Shown here in pieces: positions 11,395-42,311 of a DNA stretch of 43,448 nucleotides. Position 1 is the stretch's first letter. Every line of letters starts with the position of its first letter. The notes under the pieces were generated by a model. That model did no database searches and was not told where the DNA came from. It saw only the letters and a list, made by a program, of their open reading frames with translations. The DNA comes from Thermoplasmata archaeon (GTDB lineage Archaea; Thermoplasmatota; Thermoplasmata; Thermoplasmatales; Thermoplasmataceae), in the NCBI GenBank assembly GCA_021792655.1, contig JAJYUG010000005.1, positions 6,405 to 49,852 on the forward strand. Direction: 5' to 3'. Made by a program: the position numbers and the translations under genes.

Positions 11395-11694
11395 TTATAC
11401 AACCTTCTGCTAAATCAGTATTATAGAGCAAATTTGCCTTGAAATTGCTATTCTTAATTAATAGCTTCCTAATAAAATTATAGATTGCTGTAGGGTTGCG
11501 CCGCCTGATCCAGATACACTCACTTCGTCCTCGAATTCAAGGCTCTCAACTTGTTGGGTTTTTGTCCCTGCTTGCTGTTGATTTCCCTGGATCCATAGGT
11601 GCAGGATGATCTGTGGTTCGAATCAATTGCCAATCAAAAAACTTGATGTCCTGGTGATCATAAATGTTTTTTACTGATGGTACATCGGAGTTCG
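11395..11694. other. Intergenic region between divergent S6e and Kae1-Bud32 genes
   Basis: The ends hold the two promoters: a minus-strand TATA-like element at 11418-11427 for S6e and a plus-strand CATAAATG at 11659-11666 for Kae1-Bud32. The middle, about 11480-11640, has a more balanced base composition than the promoter ends and no credible reading frame. A fragment at about 11615-11626 resembles a tRNA T loop but does not fold into a tRNA. It could contain an uncharacterised RNA; I see nothing that identifies one. Confidence 0.4.
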
Positions 11695-13293
11695 ATGCTC
11701 GTTCTGGGAATTGAGGGGACTGCCCATACAATTAGTTCCGGGATCATAGACGAGGCACGCGTCCTTTCCAACGTAAATTCAACGTATATACCTCCCACTG
11801 GAGGTATCCATCCCAGAGAAGCTGCAATACATCATTCAGCAGAAGTCGTTTCAGTTATCCAGAGATCTCTTGAAGATGCCTCTGTAGAGATGAAAGACAT
11901 AGACGTGGTTGCCTTCTCTTCCGGACCTGGCCTCGGCCCATGCCTGAGAGTTGCTGCTACAGCTGCGAGGACACTATCAATCAAATTTGCGAAGCCCATA
12001 GTGAGGGTTAATCATCCGCTTGGTCATATCGAAATAGGCAGGAAATTAACTGGCGCGCTGGACCCCGTGATGCTTTACGTGTCCGGCGGAAACACACAGG
12101 TACTCGCCCACCTCGACGGAAGATACAGGGTCATAGGGGAGACCATAGATATTGGAGTCGGAAACATGCTCGATAAGCTTGCCAGAGAATTCGGCATACC
12201 GTTTCCTGGCGGTCCGATAATAGAGAAAATGGCAGCCAGCGGATCGGAACTGCATGAACTGCCATATTCCGTAAAGGGTATGAACTGTTCGTTCTCAGGA
12301 ATACTAACTGCAGCCCTGTCCCTGAATAAAAAGGGGAAGAGGACCGAGGATATTTTTTACAGCGTTCAGGAAACGAGTTTTGCCATGCTCGTGGAGATAC
12401 TTGAAAGAGCCCTCTATCTCACAGGCAAGAAAGAGATCATGATCGCCGGAGGCGTTGCCAGGAACGACCGCCTACGGCAGATGATAACTGATATGGCGGC
12501 AGAATCCGGTTATAATGCAATGCTGACCGACAAGCAATTCTGCATGGACAACGGGGCAATGATTGCACAGGCTGGAATTTTGATATACAAGTATCGCGGC
12601 GGTGAAAGGATAGAAGACACCCACATAAATCAGAGGGAGAGGATTGACGCTATCGAGGCTCCCTGGGTCAGGTCAAAAAAACTTTTTCCTGAAATGGGAA
12701 CCGGGGCAGAATCCGTGACTATTGAGGGAAGTTTCTACGGGAGGGACGTTGTGATAAAGAGAAGGGTATCAAAAAAGTACCGGAACCCCGTCCTTGATTC
12801 CCGGATAAGGTCGGCGAGGCAGAGAAACGAGTTCATAATTCTCAAAAAAATGGATGAAATGGGGATCAGTGTCCCCATTGTCTATGACTACGACCCGTAT
12901 GAAAATTCCATCACTATCGAGAGGATTGAGGGAGTGATGCTATCACAATTCCTTTCAGCAAATGAAGAGACAGGAACTGTTGTTCAAGATCTCGGTAACG
13001 TGATTGGCGCCATACATTCAAAGGGAATAACCCATGGGGATCTGACTACAAACAATATTATGGTCATAGACGGAAAAGTATGCTTGATTGATCCAAGCAT
13101 GGGGAAGCTGGATTCTACAATGGAGGAAATTGCTTCCGATGTCTTTCTCCTCATAGAATCTTTCAGGAGTCTGAACAGCAACAGGAAGGATCTTATTGAT
13201 GAGTTTATGGAGAGTTACAGCAAAAATTTTCCAGATTCACCGGCAGTTATAGAAACACTTGGTATTATGGAGAAAAGGAGAAGGTACGTTTGA
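11695..13293 (+). CDS. Kae1-Bud32 fusion: tRNA threonylcarbamoyladenosine synthesis protein and kinase/ATPase
   Basis: 532 residues from the ATG at 11695. The N-terminal ~320 residues are Kae1 (TsaD): VLGIEGTAHT, the metal-binding NHPLGHIE (HxxxH), LYVSGGNTQV and the AGGVARNDRLRQM ATP site. The remainder is the Bud32 atypical kinase with GRDVVIKRRVSKKYR, the catalytic HGDLTTNNIM and a metal-binding Asp in LIDPSMG. Most Bud32 proteins have DFG at this last site; here it is DPS. The protein is the catalytic part of the KEOPS complex that makes t6A at position 37 of ANN-decoding tRNAs. A longer frame begins at 11677, but the TATA box at 11659-11666 makes 11695 the better start. Confidence 0.93.
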   Translation: MLVLGIEGTAHTISSGIIDEARVLSNVNSTYIPPTGGIHPREAAIHHSAEVVSVIQRSLEDASVEMKDIDVVAFSSGPGLGPCLRVAATAARTLSIKFAKPIVRVNHPLGHIEIGRKLTGALDPVMLYVSGGNTQVLAHLDGRYRVIGETIDIGVGNMLDKLAREFGIPFPGGPIIEKMAASGSELHELPYSVKGMNCSFSGILTAALSLNKKGKRTEDIFYSVQETSFAMLVEILERALYLTGKKEIMIAGGVARNDRLRQMITDMAAESGYNAMLTDKQFCMDNGAMIAQAGILIYKYRGGERIEDTHINQRERIDAIEAPWVRSKKLFPEMGTGAESVTIEGSFYGRDVVIKRRVSKKYRNPVLDSRIRSARQRNEFIILKKMDEMGISVPIVYDYDPYENSITIERIEGVMLSQFLSANEETGTVVQDLGNVIGAIHSKGITHGDLTTNNIMVIDGKVCLIDPSMGKLDSTMEEIASDVFLLIESFRSLNSNRKDLIDEFMESYSKNFPDSPAVIETLGIMEKRRRYV

Positions 13294-18634: not shown

Positions 18635-19657
18635 CTAGTGAATTGCTTTCTTAATCGGTGATTTCTTCTGGAGCCTCTTTGAAAAAGTTCTCAGGTATAT
18701 CAGATACATGTATTGGGCATCGTGTTCAAGGAGCGGAGATGAAGATATCAGGGTGATGTCTTCCTCCCTGTTAGCAATTGCTTCAGCAAGCGTCTCAAAC
18801 TTCAGGTCCCCATGCTTTATTGCAGTCAGCTTCGTTTCGTTGTGATCCTGGTATTCAACACCTGAGAATTCTGTGTACAGATCACCCTTTGAAAATTTTG
18901 AAAATTCGTCGAGGACGTCTTCAAAATCCTTTATTTCAATAAGGGAACCTCCGGTCAGTGAATGAATGTGTGGGAAATTTATTATAGGCTCTATCTCGGG
19001 AACTTTCTTTGCAAGCGCTGTCAGATCTGACGTTGCGCCAAAAATTTCTGCCTTTCCTGAACATTCTACCGATACAAATGGAAAATTTTCACTGGGCGGG
19101 CATGCCTTTGCTACACGGGTATAAACCTCAATTGCCCTTTTCAGGCTTTCCTTCTTGTTGGCTTTGTAAAAACCTGTATGAGTAACAACCCTCTTTGCCT
19201 GCATTGCTTTTCCCGTTATGAGAGTCCATCTCAGGTGATCGTACGACTTTTCCCCTATGTCTCCATCATCAAGCAGGTCCATGTAATAAGGCGCGTGCAT
19301 AGACAGGTTGACATCAAGCTCTTTTGCCAGCTCTCCACCTTCCCTCAACTCGTCGTAATTTTTAGCCATGTTCCAGAATATCTCCTGGACTATGTCATCT
19401 TCCTCTATTGTTGATTCGATCCCTACGGGTCTGTAGTTACCGTTCTCGTCGCTCCTCAGCACCTCTACAATAATTGAACCCTCCACGTCCTTTGGCTTCA
19501 TGCCTGTGTATTCCAGTGCCGGCCTCTCCTCAATGTTCACCCTGAGCAGTTGCACTTCAAGCGCATTCAGTCCCAGGTTGTGAACATCCTCAACTGATTC
19601 AATGAAAGTTCTTCCCTTGCTGGTCAAAGGAATCCCGGCAATGCCAAATCTAATCAT
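18635..19657 (-). CDS. Endonuclease IV-like TIM-barrel protein
   Basis: 340 residues with the AP endonuclease family 2 barrel. The metal-site positions of endonuclease IV can be followed: MHAPYY, VVTHTGFY, VECSGKAEIFG, NFPHIHSLTGG and YTEFSGVEY. This suggests cleavage at abasic sites, although the superfamily also contains sugar isomerases and the C-terminal metal positions are less clear here. An A/T-rich TATA candidate lies at 19689-19697, about 35 bases before the ATG. It leads a group with the 97-residue protein gene and perhaps the MFS gene. Confidence 0.75.
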   Translation of the reverse strand: MIRFGIAGIPLTSKGRTFIESVEDVHNLGLNALEVQLLRVNIEERPALEYTGMKPKDVEGSIIVEVLRSDENGNYRPVGIESTIEEDDIVQEIFWNMAKNYDELREGGELAKELDVNLSMHAPYYMDLLDDGDIGEKSYDHLRWTLITGKAMQAKRVVTHTGFYKANKKESLKRAIEVYTRVAKACPPSENFPFVSVECSGKAEIFGATSDLTALAKKVPEIEPIINFPHIHSLTGGSLIEIKDFEDVLDEFSKFSKGDLYTEFSGVEYQDHNETKLTAIKHGDLKFETLAEAIANREEDITLISSSPLLEHDAQYMYLIYLRTFSKRLQKKSPIKKAIH

Positions 19658-19883
19658 AATAAACTTTTTAGTTAATAGTTAATGCATTATATAATTTTAC
19701 GATGAATTTACTGCGACTGGATCGGAGCACCAGAGTTGCCCTTTTTTAAAAACCCTATGCTCAATCGGGGAATACGCTAGCGAACAGATTATATATTCAT
19801 AAGTTATACAAACTCGATGGTGATAGAGGGAAAAACTTCTTGTTCTATCGTTATCTTAAATGAAGATATCAAGGGTGATAGTG

Positions 19884-21188
19884 ATGAATGTAGATCCAAA
19901 TTTAACGAAATACATGATCAAAGCCAAAATTGCAACCGATGGGGTGGTTGAAAAACCAGACGTAGTCGGCGCCATATTTGGTCAGACCGAAGGATTATTG
20001 GGAAACGAGCTTGACTTAAGAGACCTGCAGAAAAGCGGAAAAATAGGAAGAATAGAAGTCGAAATAGACAGCAAGAAAGGAAGGACCGAGGGTTTTGCAC
20101 TTATTCCATCCGGACTTGATCAGGTTGAAAGCTCCATACTTGCCGCATCTCTGGAAACTATAGACAGGATTGGCCCATGCAAGGCGAAAGTAGAGATAGA
20201 GAACATAGAGGACGTAAGGATACAGAAAAGGAAAAAGGTAGTCGAAAGGGCAGAAGAGCTTTACAAAAGAATGGGCGAGAACGGCAAGACTGTTAGCGAA
20301 TCCATAGTACAGACTGTAAGGGAAGAGGTAGAGAAGGGAGAAATAATGAGCTATGGCGAGGAGCACCTCCCAGCGGGCCCCGCAGTGAAGGATTCCGATT
20401 CAATAATCGTTGTAGAAGGCAGGAGTGATATCCTGAACCTTCTGAGATATGGGATAAAGAACACAATAGCAGTGCAGGGAACTAACATCCCGAAAACAGT
20501 ACAGATGCTATCCAGAGAGAGAACAGTTACGGTGTTCCTGGATGGCGACAGGGGTGGAGACCTAATACTGAAAGAAATGCTCCAGGTAGCCGAGGTAGAT
20601 TTCGTTGCCAGGGCACCGCCTGGAACCGAAGTTGAAGAGTTGACATACAAGCAGATAGTTAAAGCACTGAGATACAAGACTCCTGTGGATCAATACCTAT
20701 CCATGAGAGGGATGACAGAAGAGCTGAAGGAACTTTCAGAAAGAAATGCTACTGAATCCCAGAAGATACACAAAAAGCCCGTTCAGAAACAGGCAGAACC
20801 TGTGGAGCAGAAAAAACCACGGGAGGAGATTCTACCCCCGGAGGAAGCAGTACCTGAAGAGGAGCTAATTGAGGATAACCCTGATAAGGTGGATCTTTCT
20901 AACCCTCGGGCAATTGAGAAAAGAGCGAATTCATTGCTCCAGGACAAGCTTACGGAGTTCTATGGAAACGATGGTACAAAAATTGCCTCGTTCCCGGTAG
21001 CTGAAGCTGTGGATAAGATGGCGGAAGTGGCTTCTGCGGACACTCTCATCACAGGTGGAGTCATATCACAGAGGCTTGTTGACGTAGCTTTTACTAAGGG
21101 TATCAAGAACATTTACGGAGTGAAGATGGGGCACGTGACAAAGAAGCCTTCTGAAATTAGGGTAGTATCATGGGAACGCCATTCCTGA
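19884..21188 (+). CDS. dnaG: Archaeal DnaG (toprim-domain primase / exosome-associated protein)
   Basis: 434 residues from the ATG at 19884. The N-terminal segment KYMIKAKIATDGVVEKPDVVGAIFG is diagnostic of archaeal DnaG. The toprim domain follows with the catalytic glutamate in IIVVEGRSDI and the DxD in VFLDGDRGG. A charged linker and a conserved C-terminal domain complete it. Archaeal DnaG can make primers but is also an RNA-binding component of the exosome. The frame opens eight codons earlier (19860); GGTGAT at 19874-19879, matching the anti-Shine-Dalgarno, is four bases before the internal ATG, which also gives the usual N-terminus. The next gene overlaps its end by 19 bases. Confidence 0.94.
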   Translation: MNVDPNLTKYMIKAKIATDGVVEKPDVVGAIFGQTEGLLGNELDLRDLQKSGKIGRIEVEIDSKKGRTEGFALIPSGLDQVESSILAASLETIDRIGPCKAKVEIENIEDVRIQKRKKVVERAEELYKRMGENGKTVSESIVQTVREEVEKGEIMSYGEEHLPAGPAVKDSDSIIVVEGRSDILNLLRYGIKNTIAVQGTNIPKTVQMLSRERTVTVFLDGDRGGDLILKEMLQVAEVDFVARAPPGTEVEELTYKQIVKALRYKTPVDQYLSMRGMTEELKELSERNATESQKIHKKPVQKQAEPVEQKKPREEILPPEEAVPEEELIEDNPDKVDLSNPRAIEKRANSLLQDKLTEFYGNDGTKIASFPVAEAVDKMAEVASADTLITGGVISQRLVDVAFTKGIKNIYGVKMGHVTKKPSEIRVVSWERHS

Positions 21189-22669
21189 ACGCTAATTTTG
21201 AAGAATTTCCTGACACTTCATATGTGAAGATTCCCAGCAATCCACTGGATAGAGTAATTGGCCAGGACGAAGCAGTGAAGATGGCCATGATTGCAGCCAG
21301 GCAAAGGAGACACCTGCTCCTGGTGGGGCCGCCTGGAGTGGGAAAGTCCATGATTGCCCAGGCGATGTCGTTTTATATTCAGAGACCTAAGGAGGAGATC
21401 AGGGTAGTGCACAATCCACAGTACCCAGAACGTCCCTTTGTGGAAGTAAAGAGCGCGGAAGAGGTAAATGCAGAAACCCTGGAACTTGGATCCGTCGAAG
21501 GAATGATAATGGATCCTCAGAACGTCCCCGTCAGTGTTGCAGAGAGGCTCGGATATCGCTGCCCTAAGTGTGGTTTTTATTCTATTTATACAGAGCAGGT
21601 ATGCCCGAATTGTAATTCTCCCAAGGTACAGGTTAATACCCAGGGGCCGTTCGGTGATGTTTTTAATGTGATTGGAGCGGCCTTTGGCGTACAGAACAAC
21701 AGCGAGCGTGTCACCTCGACAAGGAAATTCGGGGACCGTGAAGAGGTTATTGTTTATGAAAGGGCTGGGGAGAACATCAGGATACTTGACGAGAAAACAC
21801 TGGAACGCAAGAGAAAAATGGAAAAGAAAAGCCCTAGCAAGGTCATAGTTCCTCTCGACAGAAACCCGTTTGTACTGGCAACCGGAGCAAGCGAGACCGA
21901 ATTGCTTGGGGATGTAAGGCACGACCCTTACGGCGGGCATCCGCAGCTCGGCACCTTACCCTATGAAAGAGTCATAGCAGGTTCTGTGCACGAGGCACAC
22001 GAGGGTGTACTGTTTATTGATGAGATAACCCATCTTGGAAACCTGCAGAGGTTCATTCTGACCGCCATGCAGGAGAGAAATTTCCCCATAACCGGGCGTA
22101 ACCCACAGAGCGCAGGAGCAAGCGTAAGGGTAGACAAGGTCCCGGCAAATTTTATTCTCGTGGCAGCCTGCAACATACAGGACCTTCAGTACATATTGAG
22201 TCCATTGAGATCCAGGATTGTTGGAAGCGGTTATGAGATACTGATGGAGACAACAATACCAGATACTCTGGAAAACAGGACAAAATACATTCAGTTCATC
22301 GCACAGGAAATTATTGTTGACGGCAAGATACCGCATATGGCAATGGACGCAGCCACAATGATAATAGACGAGGGAGCAAGAAGGGCAAAGGATATAGACC
22401 ACAAGGAAAGGGCTCTCACCCTTAAGCTCCGCGAACTTGGCGGATTAATCAGGGCGGCAGGGGATATATGTGTCTCTGAAGATGGAAAACTAATCGAGAA
22501 AAGACACGTGAAGGAAGCTTTGAACATGTATCTGCCAGTCGAAGAGAAGATCAAAAAATACTACGGAAATTTCGGTGCGGCGGTATCATCAGAATCTACT
22601 GACTCACAGAAGCAGAGTGAATACTTTTCCAATTACCACAACTACAGGGACGACCGCTCCTATCAGTGA
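21170..22669 (+). CDS. Lon-like AAA+ ATPase with zinc ribbon and no protease domain
   Basis: 499 residues. Walker A is GPPGVGKS (53-60), Walker B LFIDEI (281-286), sensor 1 Asn335 and arginine finger in LRSRI, all close to archaeal LonB. A zinc ribbon (Cys131, Cys134, Cys145, Cys148) is inserted between Walker A and Walker B. The chain ends in a glutamine/serine/tyrosine-rich tail at 499: the Lon serine-lysine protease domain is missing, and so are LonB's two membrane helices. It therefore cannot be a Lon protease as such and may unfold or remodel substrates. The ATG overlaps the dnaG frame by 19 bases, implying coupled translation. Confidence 0.88.
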   Translation: MGTPFLNANFEEFPDTSYVKIPSNPLDRVIGQDEAVKMAMIAARQRRHLLLVGPPGVGKSMIAQAMSFYIQRPKEEIRVVHNPQYPERPFVEVKSAEEVNAETLELGSVEGMIMDPQNVPVSVAERLGYRCPKCGFYSIYTEQVCPNCNSPKVQVNTQGPFGDVFNVIGAAFGVQNNSERVTSTRKFGDREEVIVYERAGENIRILDEKTLERKRKMEKKSPSKVIVPLDRNPFVLATGASETELLGDVRHDPYGGHPQLGTLPYERVIAGSVHEAHEGVLFIDEITHLGNLQRFILTAMQERNFPITGRNPQSAGASVRVDKVPANFILVAACNIQDLQYILSPLRSRIVGSGYEILMETTIPDTLENRTKYIQFIAQEIIVDGKIPHMAMDAATMIIDEGARRAKDIDHKERALTLKLRELGGLIRAAGDICVSEDGKLIEKRHVKEALNMYLPVEEKIKKYYGNFGAAVSSESTDSQKQSEYFSNYHNYRDDRSYQ

Positions 22670-22715: not shown

Positions 22716-24482
22716 ATGAATATAACATACACGCTTGAGATGAATAATCCACATACACACTTCTTCAGAGTAAAGATGAAGCTTGACGATGTCAGCGAGG
22801 AACGGACATTGCTCACTATGCCGGCATGGACTCCGGGATCTTACGCGATACTTGATTTTGCCAGGAATGTAAGGAAGCTTCAGGCCGTATCCGAATCAGG
22901 AGCGCCATTGGTGGTAACAAAGAAAGATAAGTCTACATGGATCGTAGCATCTTCTGGCATCAGGACTATAGAAATAAGCTATGAAGTATATGCAGATGAA
23001 TTTTCAGTGCATACAAGCCATCTTGACTCGACGCATGCATTTGTTCTTGGAACCAGCGTTTTCCTTTACATAGAAGGATACAAGGATCAGGCGGTGGAGC
23101 TCTTTGTTTCTCCGCCTGCGGAATGGAAAATATCTACCGGGCTTGAAAAGATAGGCGAAAACAGGTTCAGGGCAGTTAATTATGACATTCTTGTCGATTC
23201 TCCGCTGGAAATCGGTACTCACCGCAGCCTCTTTTTTGAGGTCGACGGAAAACAGCATGAAATAGCGATATACGGACACGGAAACGAAAACGAGACAATG
23301 ATTCTGAATGATGTCCAGAAAATAGTCTCCTCTTTTTCAAAGATGTTCAACCAGTATCCCTTCAAAAGATATGTTTTCATATATCACCTTGTTCAGGAGG
23401 GCGGGCAGGGGGGTGGCCTGGAACACCTGAATTCAACCACCATTGATATTGAAAGGTTCAGTTTTTCCCCGAGGGACAGATACCTGGATTTTCTTTCAGT
23501 CACGTCACACGAATATTTCCACCTGTGGAATGTAAAACGGATCAGGCCGATCGAACTGGGGCCATTCAACTACAAGGAAGAGAACTACACAACAATGCTG
23601 TGGGTAAGCGAAGGGATAACCAGCTACTACGAATGGATTGCACTCTTCCGTGCAGGGCTGATTACGGAGGAGGAATATCTGAAACATATCCTTGAGTATG
23701 TAAGGTACTACGAACTCCTGCCCGGATCTGCCATCGAATCCGCATCCGATTCCTCTTTCGACTCATGGATAAAGCTTTACCGCCCGTCTCCAAACAACAC
23801 CAATAGTTACATATCATACTATCTCAAGGGAGAGATCCTCGGCTTCCTCCTTAGCAGCAGAATATCTGAAGCTACGGGGGGATCAAAGAGCCTTGATGAT
23901 GTAATGAGGCATCTCTATGAAAAATACAAGAAGGATGGCAAGGGCTTTGTGGAGAAGGACCTGCTTTCCGCACTCAGGGATGTGTCAGGGAAGGATTTTT
24001 CAGAATTTTACTCACGATATGTCAAGGGTACTGAGAAAATAGACTTCGATTCTGAGTTTGCCAGAATAGGGGTGAAAATCAAGAAGGGATACAAGAAAAT
24101 AGATAATAACGAACCTGCGGAGAAATCGTACATGGGTTTGTTCACAAAATCAGAGAACGGCAAAATTATCGTGTCCTCGGTCCTTGAAGGATCACCTGCG
24201 TTCCAGGCAGGAATCAATGCCGGCGATGAGCTGGTTGCTATCAACCGTGTCAGGTTTTCCGATCTGTTTCTGAAAAATATAAGGGATGATATAAGATCAA
24301 TCAAGACTGATAACCCTTATATTTTCAAGCCTGGTGATAAGGTGATGATCGACCTGTTCAGGAGAGGCATACTATATACTGTGGAAGTGCAACTTATGCG
24401 GGCTCCGCCAGAATATTATGAACCGATACTTGATCGTGAGGACAAGACTTCGGCAATTCGCAGCAGAGTAATTCTGGGGTAA
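22716..24482 (+). CDS. M61-family metallopeptidase with PDZ domain
   Basis: 588 residues. N-terminal beta-domain starting YTLEMNNPHTHFFRVKM; a gluzincin active site with His265-Glu266-x2-His269 (HEYFH) and the downstream glutamate Glu299 in WVSEGITSYY; and GGLEHLNS just upstream, all family M61 marks. A PDZ domain occupies about residues 470-560 (SPAFQAGINAGDELVAINRV). Glycyl aminopeptidase activity is the known function of the family. There is no signal peptide, so it should be cytosolic, probably in peptide recycling. A TATA-like AAATTTAAA at 22680-22688 precedes the ATG by about 31 bases. Confidence 0.92.
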   Translation: MNITYTLEMNNPHTHFFRVKMKLDDVSEERTLLTMPAWTPGSYAILDFARNVRKLQAVSESGAPLVVTKKDKSTWIVASSGIRTIEISYEVYADEFSVHTSHLDSTHAFVLGTSVFLYIEGYKDQAVELFVSPPAEWKISTGLEKIGENRFRAVNYDILVDSPLEIGTHRSLFFEVDGKQHEIAIYGHGNENETMILNDVQKIVSSFSKMFNQYPFKRYVFIYHLVQEGGQGGGLEHLNSTTIDIERFSFSPRDRYLDFLSVTSHEYFHLWNVKRIRPIELGPFNYKEENYTTMLWVSEGITSYYEWIALFRAGLITEEEYLKHILEYVRYYELLPGSAIESASDSSFDSWIKLYRPSPNNTNSYISYYLKGEILGFLLSSRISEATGGSKSLDDVMRHLYEKYKKDGKGFVEKDLLSALRDVSGKDFSEFYSRYVKGTEKIDFDSEFARIGVKIKKGYKKIDNNEPAEKSYMGLFTKSENGKIIVSSVLEGSPAFQAGINAGDELVAINRVRFSDLFLKNIRDDIRSIKTDNPYIFKPGDKVMIDLFRRGILYTVEVQLMRAPPEYYEPILDREDKTSAIRSRVILG

Positions 24483-41066: not shown

Positions 41067-42311
41067 ATGGAGTTCAAGACCGCATACAAAATACCGGCGT
41101 CGCTGTGCATAAGGTGCAGGGGGGCAAAGATGCTATGCGGACTTTCCTACTGCCCGATTTCGGTGAAGAATCTCCTTCAGCCGAAGATAGCAAGATTCAA
41201 CGGGACGGAAATAAGCGGATCAACCCCTCCTTCAATTTTTGTCGGGAGATATGGGTATCCCAAGGTTAACATCTATCCATCAGCCCCAAACATTCATGGG
41301 GATACCAGCGGATATGAAGACCCCTCAAAATGGATGAATGTGGATATGGAGGAGTTCCTCTCAATGAGACTATCACTGCTGAGGGGAGGAATGGAAGTGA
41401 ACGTAAAGAATATCTCCGATCCAGGGAAGACGCTTCAGGATATACAGGTGATGACGCTATCCGAGAAGCCTGTGGAGGTTGAAATGGAATTCACGAAGAA
41501 CATTAACAATGCAAAGATTGTTCTGGATGAGCATGTTGCCCCTATGGGCCCTTCGGCTCCTGTCAAGAAGCTCACCATTGGCAATGGCAAAATAGAGGGA
41601 TTTGTGGAGAGGATATACTCAGAGGACGACCTTCTCGCAGTGGAAGGGATCAACACCATGTACAGGAGGGGAGTAGACGTCACCAGGATTTCCAAGATAC
41701 TCAGCGTCGGGGCGCTCGGGGTTAGAAAGCAGAGAAAAGCCGTTCCAACAAGATGGGCGATAACTGCTGCGGACAAGAATGTCTCTGACCAGCTTACAGA
41801 CGAGATCAAGGAAAAGCCACAGCTCGGAGAATACCTGGCCTACGTGAGGAAGACGCCGGGAAATCTCTTCACCGCAATACTCTCTCCCAGAAACTGGATG
41901 TTTGAATGGGGGGAAGCTTGGTATCCGGGAAGCACGTGGAACCAGTGGAGCGACACGCCGTTTGTCGAGATTGACTACGAAATGTATGGCGGGAGAAAGG
42001 ATTACCCGGGAATAGGCGGTTGCTACTACGCTTCCAAGCTGGCGGCACTTGAAGCGCTTAAGGGCCTGAACAGGCAGGGTTCTGCTACCCTTTGGAGGGA
42101 GATATACCCGGGCTTCAACCTGCCTGTGGGCGTTTGGTATGTCAGGGAAAACGTGAGGGAGATGTTCCGGTCGAAGCCGGAAAGATTCAGCAGCTATCAG
42201 GAAGCCCTGAAATATATAGCCTCCTTCCTTACAGTTCCGGTTAACAAGTGGAGGCAGAAATCAGGGCTCGACCAGATACTGTATTACGGTGGGCTTGACA
42301 GGTTTCTCTGA
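41067..42311 (+). CDS. Nre-family archaeal DNA-repair protein
   Basis: 414 residues. The N-terminal zinc finger is Cys14-x2-Cys17-x6-Cys24-x4-Cys29 in ASLCIRCRGAKMLCGLSYCP, followed by the conserved FVGRYGYPKVNIYPSAP that defines the Nre family. Nre proteins have been linked to DNA damage tolerance and PCNA in archaea; no clear PCNA-interacting motif is visible at this C-terminus (LDQILYYGGLDRFL is a weak fit). The TATA-like GCTTTAATAG is about 29 bases before the ATG. Eleven bases separate it from the radical SAM gene, so they form an operon. Confidence 0.9.
   Translation: MEFKTAYKIPASLCIRCRGAKMLCGLSYCPISVKNLLQPKIARFNGTEISGSTPPSIFVGRYGYPKVNIYPSAPNIHGDTSGYEDPSKWMNVDMEEFLSMRLSLLRGGMEVNVKNISDPGKTLQDIQVMTLSEKPVEVEMEFTKNINNAKIVLDEHVAPMGPSAPVKKLTIGNGKIEGFVERIYSEDDLLAVEGINTMYRRGVDVTRISKILSVGALGVRKQRKAVPTRWAITAADKNVSDQLTDEIKEKPQLGEYLAYVRKTPGNLFTAILSPRNWMFEWGEAWYPGSTWNQWSDTPFVEIDYEMYGGRKDYPGIGGCYYASKLAALEALKGLNRQGSATLWREIYPGFNLPVGVWYVRENVREMFRSKPERFSSYQEALKYIASFLTVPVNKWRQKSGLDQILYYGGLDRFL

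Follow-up and report, generated by a model that had tools for sequence, protein, structure and literature searches.

The gene directly downstream of dnaG in the window (the whole stretch of 43,448 nucleotides that was analysed) encodes a LonB paralogue that has neither protease domain nor membrane helices. The pairing of this gene with dnaG is above chance and is kept across many families. The tail end of the ATPase suggests an unrecognised proteasome motor, and we give an even chance to the proposal that the protein is a soluble Lon-derived AAA+ unfoldase that would dock on the 20S proteasome and be made in step with DnaG. The features of the locus are collected in Table 1.

Table 1. Position of dnaG, the ATPase gene and their features in the window
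Feature	Position	Strand	Basis or conservation
dnaG, archaeal DnaG (TOPRIM)	19860..21188	+	NF003108 profile match, 524.9 bits vs cut-off 300
TOPRIM domain of DnaG, ORF residues 181-260	20400..20639	+	PF13662/PF01751
Protease-less LonB-like AAA+ ATPase, 499 aa	21170..22669	+	ORF, LonB profile and structure matches
19-base overlap, dnaG 3' end and ATPase 5' end	21170..21188	+	ORF coordinates
Walker A, GPPGVGKSM	21326..21352	+	K and S in 100/100 full-length copies
Four-cysteine ribbon, replacing LonB membrane segment	21560..21613	+	four Cys in 100/100
RHDPYGG, putative pore loop, aromatic Y254	21917..21937	+	Y 97, F 3 of 100; role by analogy
Walker B, VLFIDE	22007..22024	+	D and E in 100/100
Sensor 1, N335	22172..22174	+	100/100
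Arginine-finger region, R347-S-R349	22208..22216	+	both R in 100/100
Sensor 2 region, RELGGLIR	22430..22453	+	R421 and R428 in 100/100
C-terminal tail, 33 residues, ending S-Y-Q	22568..22666	+	low model confidence, probably disordered
C-terminal S-Y-Q, putative proteasome-docking end	22658..22666	+	penultimate Y/F in 103/104 complete tails

The first-pass annotation had described the two genes as overlapping by 19 bases, which is exact by the ORF coordinates. Within the dnaG frame, an internal ATG at 19884 is the likely start and agrees with the beginning of the family profile. On the ATPase side, 21170 is the sole in-frame ATG, GTG or TTG upstream of T16, a residue that is invariant in an alignment of 28 rows. 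As this is the only start codon before an invariant residue, and the identical overlap is found in other copies, the overlap does not depend on the choice of start. Among the 101 distinct copies that were measured (those with dnaG found in the first count), the two genes overlap in 55, by the identical 19 bases in 24.

Using a ribbon-centred piece of the ATPase as query, with which carriers score at least 190 bits and LonB at most 58 bits, we found the ATPase in 89 of the 244 genomes of the phylum and in 72 of the 73 in its own class. By rank, it is present in all 27 genomes of its own family (f1), in 4/5 of the rest of the order, in 41/41 of the rest of the class and in 17/171 from other classes. 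Among 41 near relatives that were sampled, three families of its own order (f2, f3 and f4) had LonB alone or no match, with the ATPase in 0/11. A scan reaching close relatives gave Ferroplasma acidarmanus Fer1, Acidiplasma aeolicum and Thermogymnomonas acidicola as named carriers.

With copies told apart by their last 60 residues, 104 of 107 have dnaG directly upstream of the ATPase gene. In a first count, dnaG was within 200 nt upstream on the same strand in 98 of them. Re-examination of the nine remaining copies by tblastn placed the end of dnaG directly upstream in four, where it is partly lost at the contig end (L110, L114, L115 and L124), and likewise in the two frameshifted copies L084 and L086. 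In L058 the distance from dnaG to the ATPase is 971 nt, L057 (genome G078) has no dnaG in the 4 kb upstream and carries it on another contig, and L117 begins inside the ATPase gene, where the linkage is unreadable. As to whether the gene pair is conserved, a point that the first-pass annotation had left to be checked, the pair recurs across families and well beyond close relatives within the 244 genomes of the phylum. The dedicated partnership that had been suggested is supported at the level of the genes, and the conserved linkage together with the correlation of DnaG and ATPase distances (Spearman 0.81 over 36 genomes) indicates that it is also old. The trees of the two proteins have 13 bipartitions in common (of 22 and 23). 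We would like to point out that plain vertical co-inheritance would also give the distance correlation.

No neighbour other than dnaG is conserved over long distance. Neighbouring genes were rejected as a clue to function, since dnaG alone is kept at a distance and the two other candidates, an M61 peptidase and a TIM-barrel gene, accompany the ATPase gene only locally. The TIM-barrel gene (AP-endonuclease-2-like; 18635-19657, - strand) is divergent from dnaG and has a homologue there in about 23 loci, a count from coarse clustering that may merge two genes. The M61 peptidase, which has a PDZ domain (22716-24482, + strand), is located 46 nt downstream of the ATPase gene and adjoins it in 13 related loci. 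Elsewhere in the window are a Kae1-Bud32 type fusion (TsaD and RIO domains in one ORF; 11677-13293, + strand), followed by a Ham1-like gene, and an archaeal Nre protein with Nre_N and Nre_C (41067-42311, + strand).

That dnaG is the sole neighbour conserved over long distances would fit an ATPase that acts on DnaG itself, or on a DnaG replication or RNA complex in loading or release, with the aromatic tail docking on DnaG and the proteasome uninvolved. The common bipartitions and correlated distances point the same way, and DnaG was among the proteins detected on chromosomes isolated from T. acidophilum, according to the available part of PMC7325993. However, DnaG is above cut-off in 230 of the 244 genomes (any match in 234) and the ATPase is present in 89, and therefore DnaG can do without it; the distance correlation is equally expected from plain vertical descent; and the tail end of the ATPase is like that of proteasomal ATPases. 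We consider such a remodeller of DnaG rather unlikely.

The assignment of the downstream gene to the LonB-like AAA+ ATPases is confirmed by its best matches. The best profile match is TIGR00764 LonB, with 340 bits (under its cut-off of 516.6), and the nearest solved structures are those of LonB (PDB: 3k1j and 4zpx). The Lon protease domain, with its Ser-Lys dyad, is absent; the ORF stops after the AAA+ lid and the tail, and its 499 residues compare with 631-725 in six LonB ORFs, in agreement with the loss that had been noted. The membrane helices, also described as lost, are indeed missing: the highest 19-residue Kyte-Doolittle mean in the family is 1.66, compared with a lowest value of 2.06 among 27 LonB frames. 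LonB has hydrophobic segments between Walker A and Walker B, and the ATPase family has none there. The ribbon C131-x2-C134-x10-C145-x2-C148 is located between Walker A (residues 53-60) and Walker B (residues 280-285). Of the zinc ribbon in the first-pass annotation, the four cysteines and their position stand, whereas the binding of zinc itself is what we infer from them. Against other families, the ribbon gave weak zinc-ribbon matches only, including Nop10 and rubredoxin (best E 0.0074).

Residue conservation was read by aligning six LonB sequences with 100 full-length members of the family. Since the motor residues are invariant and the pore residue is aromatic in 100/100, selection appears to maintain an ATPase of the translocase type. 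The predicted structure of the ATPase is poor (mean pLDDT 59.5). Inspection of the tail by eye gave no match to the consensus of a PCNA-binding (PIP) box. Identity as a defence system was rejected, the PADLOC matches being generic AAA similarity, and plasmids and viral contigs gave two LonB from haloarchaea and a single weak viral match.

In an unrooted tree, the ATPases form a single clade apart from LonB, on a long branch and with a split support of 1.0. It is conceivable that the ATPase modulates LonB by forming mixed rings with the membrane protein or by competing for its substrates, as the two share descent (46-54% identity over the aligned ATPase part) and LonB occurs in genomes that also carry the ATPase. 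The well-separated clade argues against this possibility, as does the separate genomic location of lonB in the loci read; moreover, the possibility leaves the constant tail end without a role. We regard it as very improbable.

The tail end is C-terminally anchored in the family. In 104 complete distinct tails, Tyr occupies the penultimate position 80 times and Phe 23 times, and the lone non-aromatic end belongs to the frameshifted L086, whose tail aligns in another frame. Every one of the 15 families whose tail could be read has an aromatic residue there; in the 16th ATPase family, f20, the tail is cut by the contig end. Tail length ranges from 28 to 38 residues in 103/104. That a tail of variable length is fixed at its last-but-one residue suggests docking in a pocket that reads the C-terminus. 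Among background ORF ends (n=756, spurious ORFs included), the penultimate residue is Tyr in 3.2% and Phe in 5.7%. Given the conservation against this background, a chance end motif is unlikely, with the LonB of family f5 as a caveat. Complete LonB ends are aromatic in 4/25, three of these in f5, and such ends can therefore arise without known docking. The membrane LonB of f5 (L092, L171 and L174) ends in G-Y-E or V-Y-E, the same end type as in the ATPase.

A free-standing chaperone or unfoldase with no peptidase partner, the tail being a feature of assembly or solubility, would also account for a protein with intact motor residues and no protease, and the low confidence of the tail in the structure model is in line with it. 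The combination of variable length and a fixed last-but-one residue, suggestive of a pocket that reads the C-terminus, makes such a protein improbable in our judgement, and we return to docking on the 20S proteasome as the preferred reading.

The residue before the Tyr or Phe is S in 37, G in 27, M in 26, T, I and A in 4 each, and Y and R in 1 each of the 104 tails. By the HbYX criterion, 35 tails have M, I, A or Y as the preceding residue, and 69 have S, G, T or R. As the penultimate residue is aromatic and the residue before it often Ser or Gly, we describe the end as a partial HbYX. All eight families read outside its own class have the ends GYE, GYR or GYD, while MFN, MFH, MYN, IYR and similar ends are found in f8 and f9. 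The full HbYX is the minority form among these ATPases and perhaps a derived one, to judge from the tail sequences. For comparison, PAN in ATPase-bearing genomes ends in MFA (8), MFG (2), LYG (1) or MYH (1) in the 12 read of 13 fetched, the end of L157 being unreadable and left out of the count, and LYQ is the end of Cdc48 in both f1 genomes from which it was read.

Published work, in the parts available, supports binding by incomplete motifs, by analogy with other activators. Mpa/ARC and Bpa end in GQYL, of which the Q is freely changeable (PMC6017811). The YX residues are assigned to binding and Hb to opening of the archaeal gate, and Rpt1 has the Tyr without a hydrophobic residue (PMC12352868). 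Either Phe or Tyr is functional in some activators, valency overrides motif strictness in PAN, and the human 20S is reported to need Tyr at the position before the last-but-one (PMC8907193). Since the Hb group opens the archaeal gate, ATPases with an S-Y-X or G-Y-X end might attach to the 20S yet leave its gate closed. The ProEnd catalogue of HbYX proteins, in its available part, defines the motif as hydrophobic-Tyr-X (PMC11475706), and should by that definition miss most ends of the ATPase.

The 20S alpha subunit is found in 241 of the 244 genomes, including every one of the 89 ATPase carriers (a weak match in G071). As it is nearly universal, its presence carries little weight. PAN is above cut-off in 120/244 genomes and in 0/27 of the own family, f1. 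Replacement of PAN by the ATPase was rejected as an explanation, because f5 and f7-f11 carry both (PAN above cut-off in all except G130). The ATPase is absent from 155 genomes, whereas 20S alpha is found in 241, and its constant genomic partner is dnaG, with no proteasome gene in that role. According to the available part of one study, an isolated chromosome fraction of T. acidophilum contained DnaG (Ta0097), VAT and both 20S subunits (PMC7325993). Ta0096 or Ta0098, which flank Ta0097, should be the ATPase; neither is mentioned in the protein tables of the fraction in that part of the source. This co-detection is weak, as the fraction is rich in ribosomal proteins and Ta0096 and Ta0098 are unmentioned. 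We judge the likelihood of docking on the 20S to be about one half.

How the ATPase could work is suggested by its anatomy. We infer that a LonB-descended AAA+ motor that has dropped its built-in protease would form a homohexamer, unfold proteins and pass them to a separate peptidase, the 20S proteasome. The Cys4 ribbon, in the position of the membrane segment, would probably select substrates, and the six C-terminal Tyr/Phe-X ends may enter the pockets of the alpha ring, as in PAN, Cdc48/VAT and Mpa. The overlapping genes could bring the synthesis of the ATPase and DnaG in step by coupled translation. Because the two would be co-produced in this way, the substrates or the workplace of the ATPase are probably complexes associated with DnaG, a protein that it may contact.

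The first-pass annotation had proposed that the ATPase may remodel the exosome, in this case the complex of DnaG, Csl4 and Rrp41/42. Going by the title of Hou 2013, archaeal DnaG reportedly requires Csl4 for exosome binding, and Rrp41 has a match in 83/89 ATPase genomes. Six carriers (G059, G067, G072, G101, G078 and G105), which are drafts of 79-95% completeness with four from one family, gave no match to Rrp41, and the ECR1_N domain of Rrp4/Csl4 was found in 0/6 of them, compared with 7/7 comparison genomes (one weakly). All six keep 20S alpha and DnaG; in five the two genes are still linked, and the tails there end in GYE or GYR. Their RNase PH domains are mainly in long two-domain frames, which we take to be of PNPase size, with single-domain frames too in G072 and G078; such long frames are also present beside the exosome in 4/7 comparison genomes. 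Since five exosome-less genomes keep the linked pair, the pair is independent of the exosome, and the ATPase is not restricted to exosome-bearing genomes as far as these six drafts, four of one family, can tell. Moreover, of 227 genomes in which Rrp41 was matched, 144 are without the ATPase. The proposal is weakened by these results, and we hold remodelling of the exosome to be quite improbable. The replisome, which the first-pass annotation had named as the other target, is still a possible one.

In the available parts of two reviews, the archaeal proteasome ATPases named are PAN, Cdc48 and AMA (PMC13022661, PMC4192671), and one of the two calls the lack of PAN in T. acidophilum long puzzling. 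Archaeal DnaG has been tied in print to the exosome and to replication, and the gene-context study of Berthon 2008, in its available text, discusses neighbours of DnaG without the ATPase among them (PMC2643942). No title or abstract start on a DnaG-linked Lon-like ATPase was found in the open-licence literature, among the matches listed. The Tyr/Phe-X end of the ATPase, which the first-pass annotation does not mention, is a new observation. In addition to PAN, Cdc48 and AMA, the ATPase could represent a fourth type of proteasome motor in archaea, a tentative possibility that we put below even. Such a motor would have evolved from Lon by exchanging the built-in protease for the 20S core and, through its co-production with DnaG, would couple DnaG-centred nucleic-acid complexes to protein destruction independently of the exosome. 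If true, evolution can redirect an ATP-dependent protease away from its built-in proteolytic domain and towards the proteasome, and archaeal DnaG gains a new partner.

Among known systems, the ATPase is closest to archaeal LonB (S16; TIGR00764; PDB: 3k1j). The AAA+ modules are 46-54% identical, with the same motifs and helical subdomain, and both have an insert at the same site between Walker A and B. In contrast to LonB, the ATPase has no protease domain or membrane segment and has a Cys4 ribbon instead, carries an extra conserved C-terminal tail and forms a separate clade. HslU of HslUV likewise carries a domain inserted between the two Walker motifs, and its C-terminal tails dock on a proteasome-related peptidase; the ATPase differs in that its proposed partner is not HslV and its insert is a Cys4 ribbon. 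PAN (TIGR01242) and Cdc48/VAT are AAA+ motors with a penultimate aromatic residue at the C-terminal end, as is the ATPase. They belong to the classical AAA, whereas the ATPase is of the Lon lineage and has no space for their N-terminal domains ahead of its ATPase module; the residue before its Tyr is often Ser or Gly, and its docking is putative. Mpa/ARC, for which we know of no DnaG link, is of another ATPase lineage and another host group. With its GQYL end, Mpa/ARC docks via the penultimate Tyr without a preceding hydrophobic residue, according to the available part of PMC6017811.
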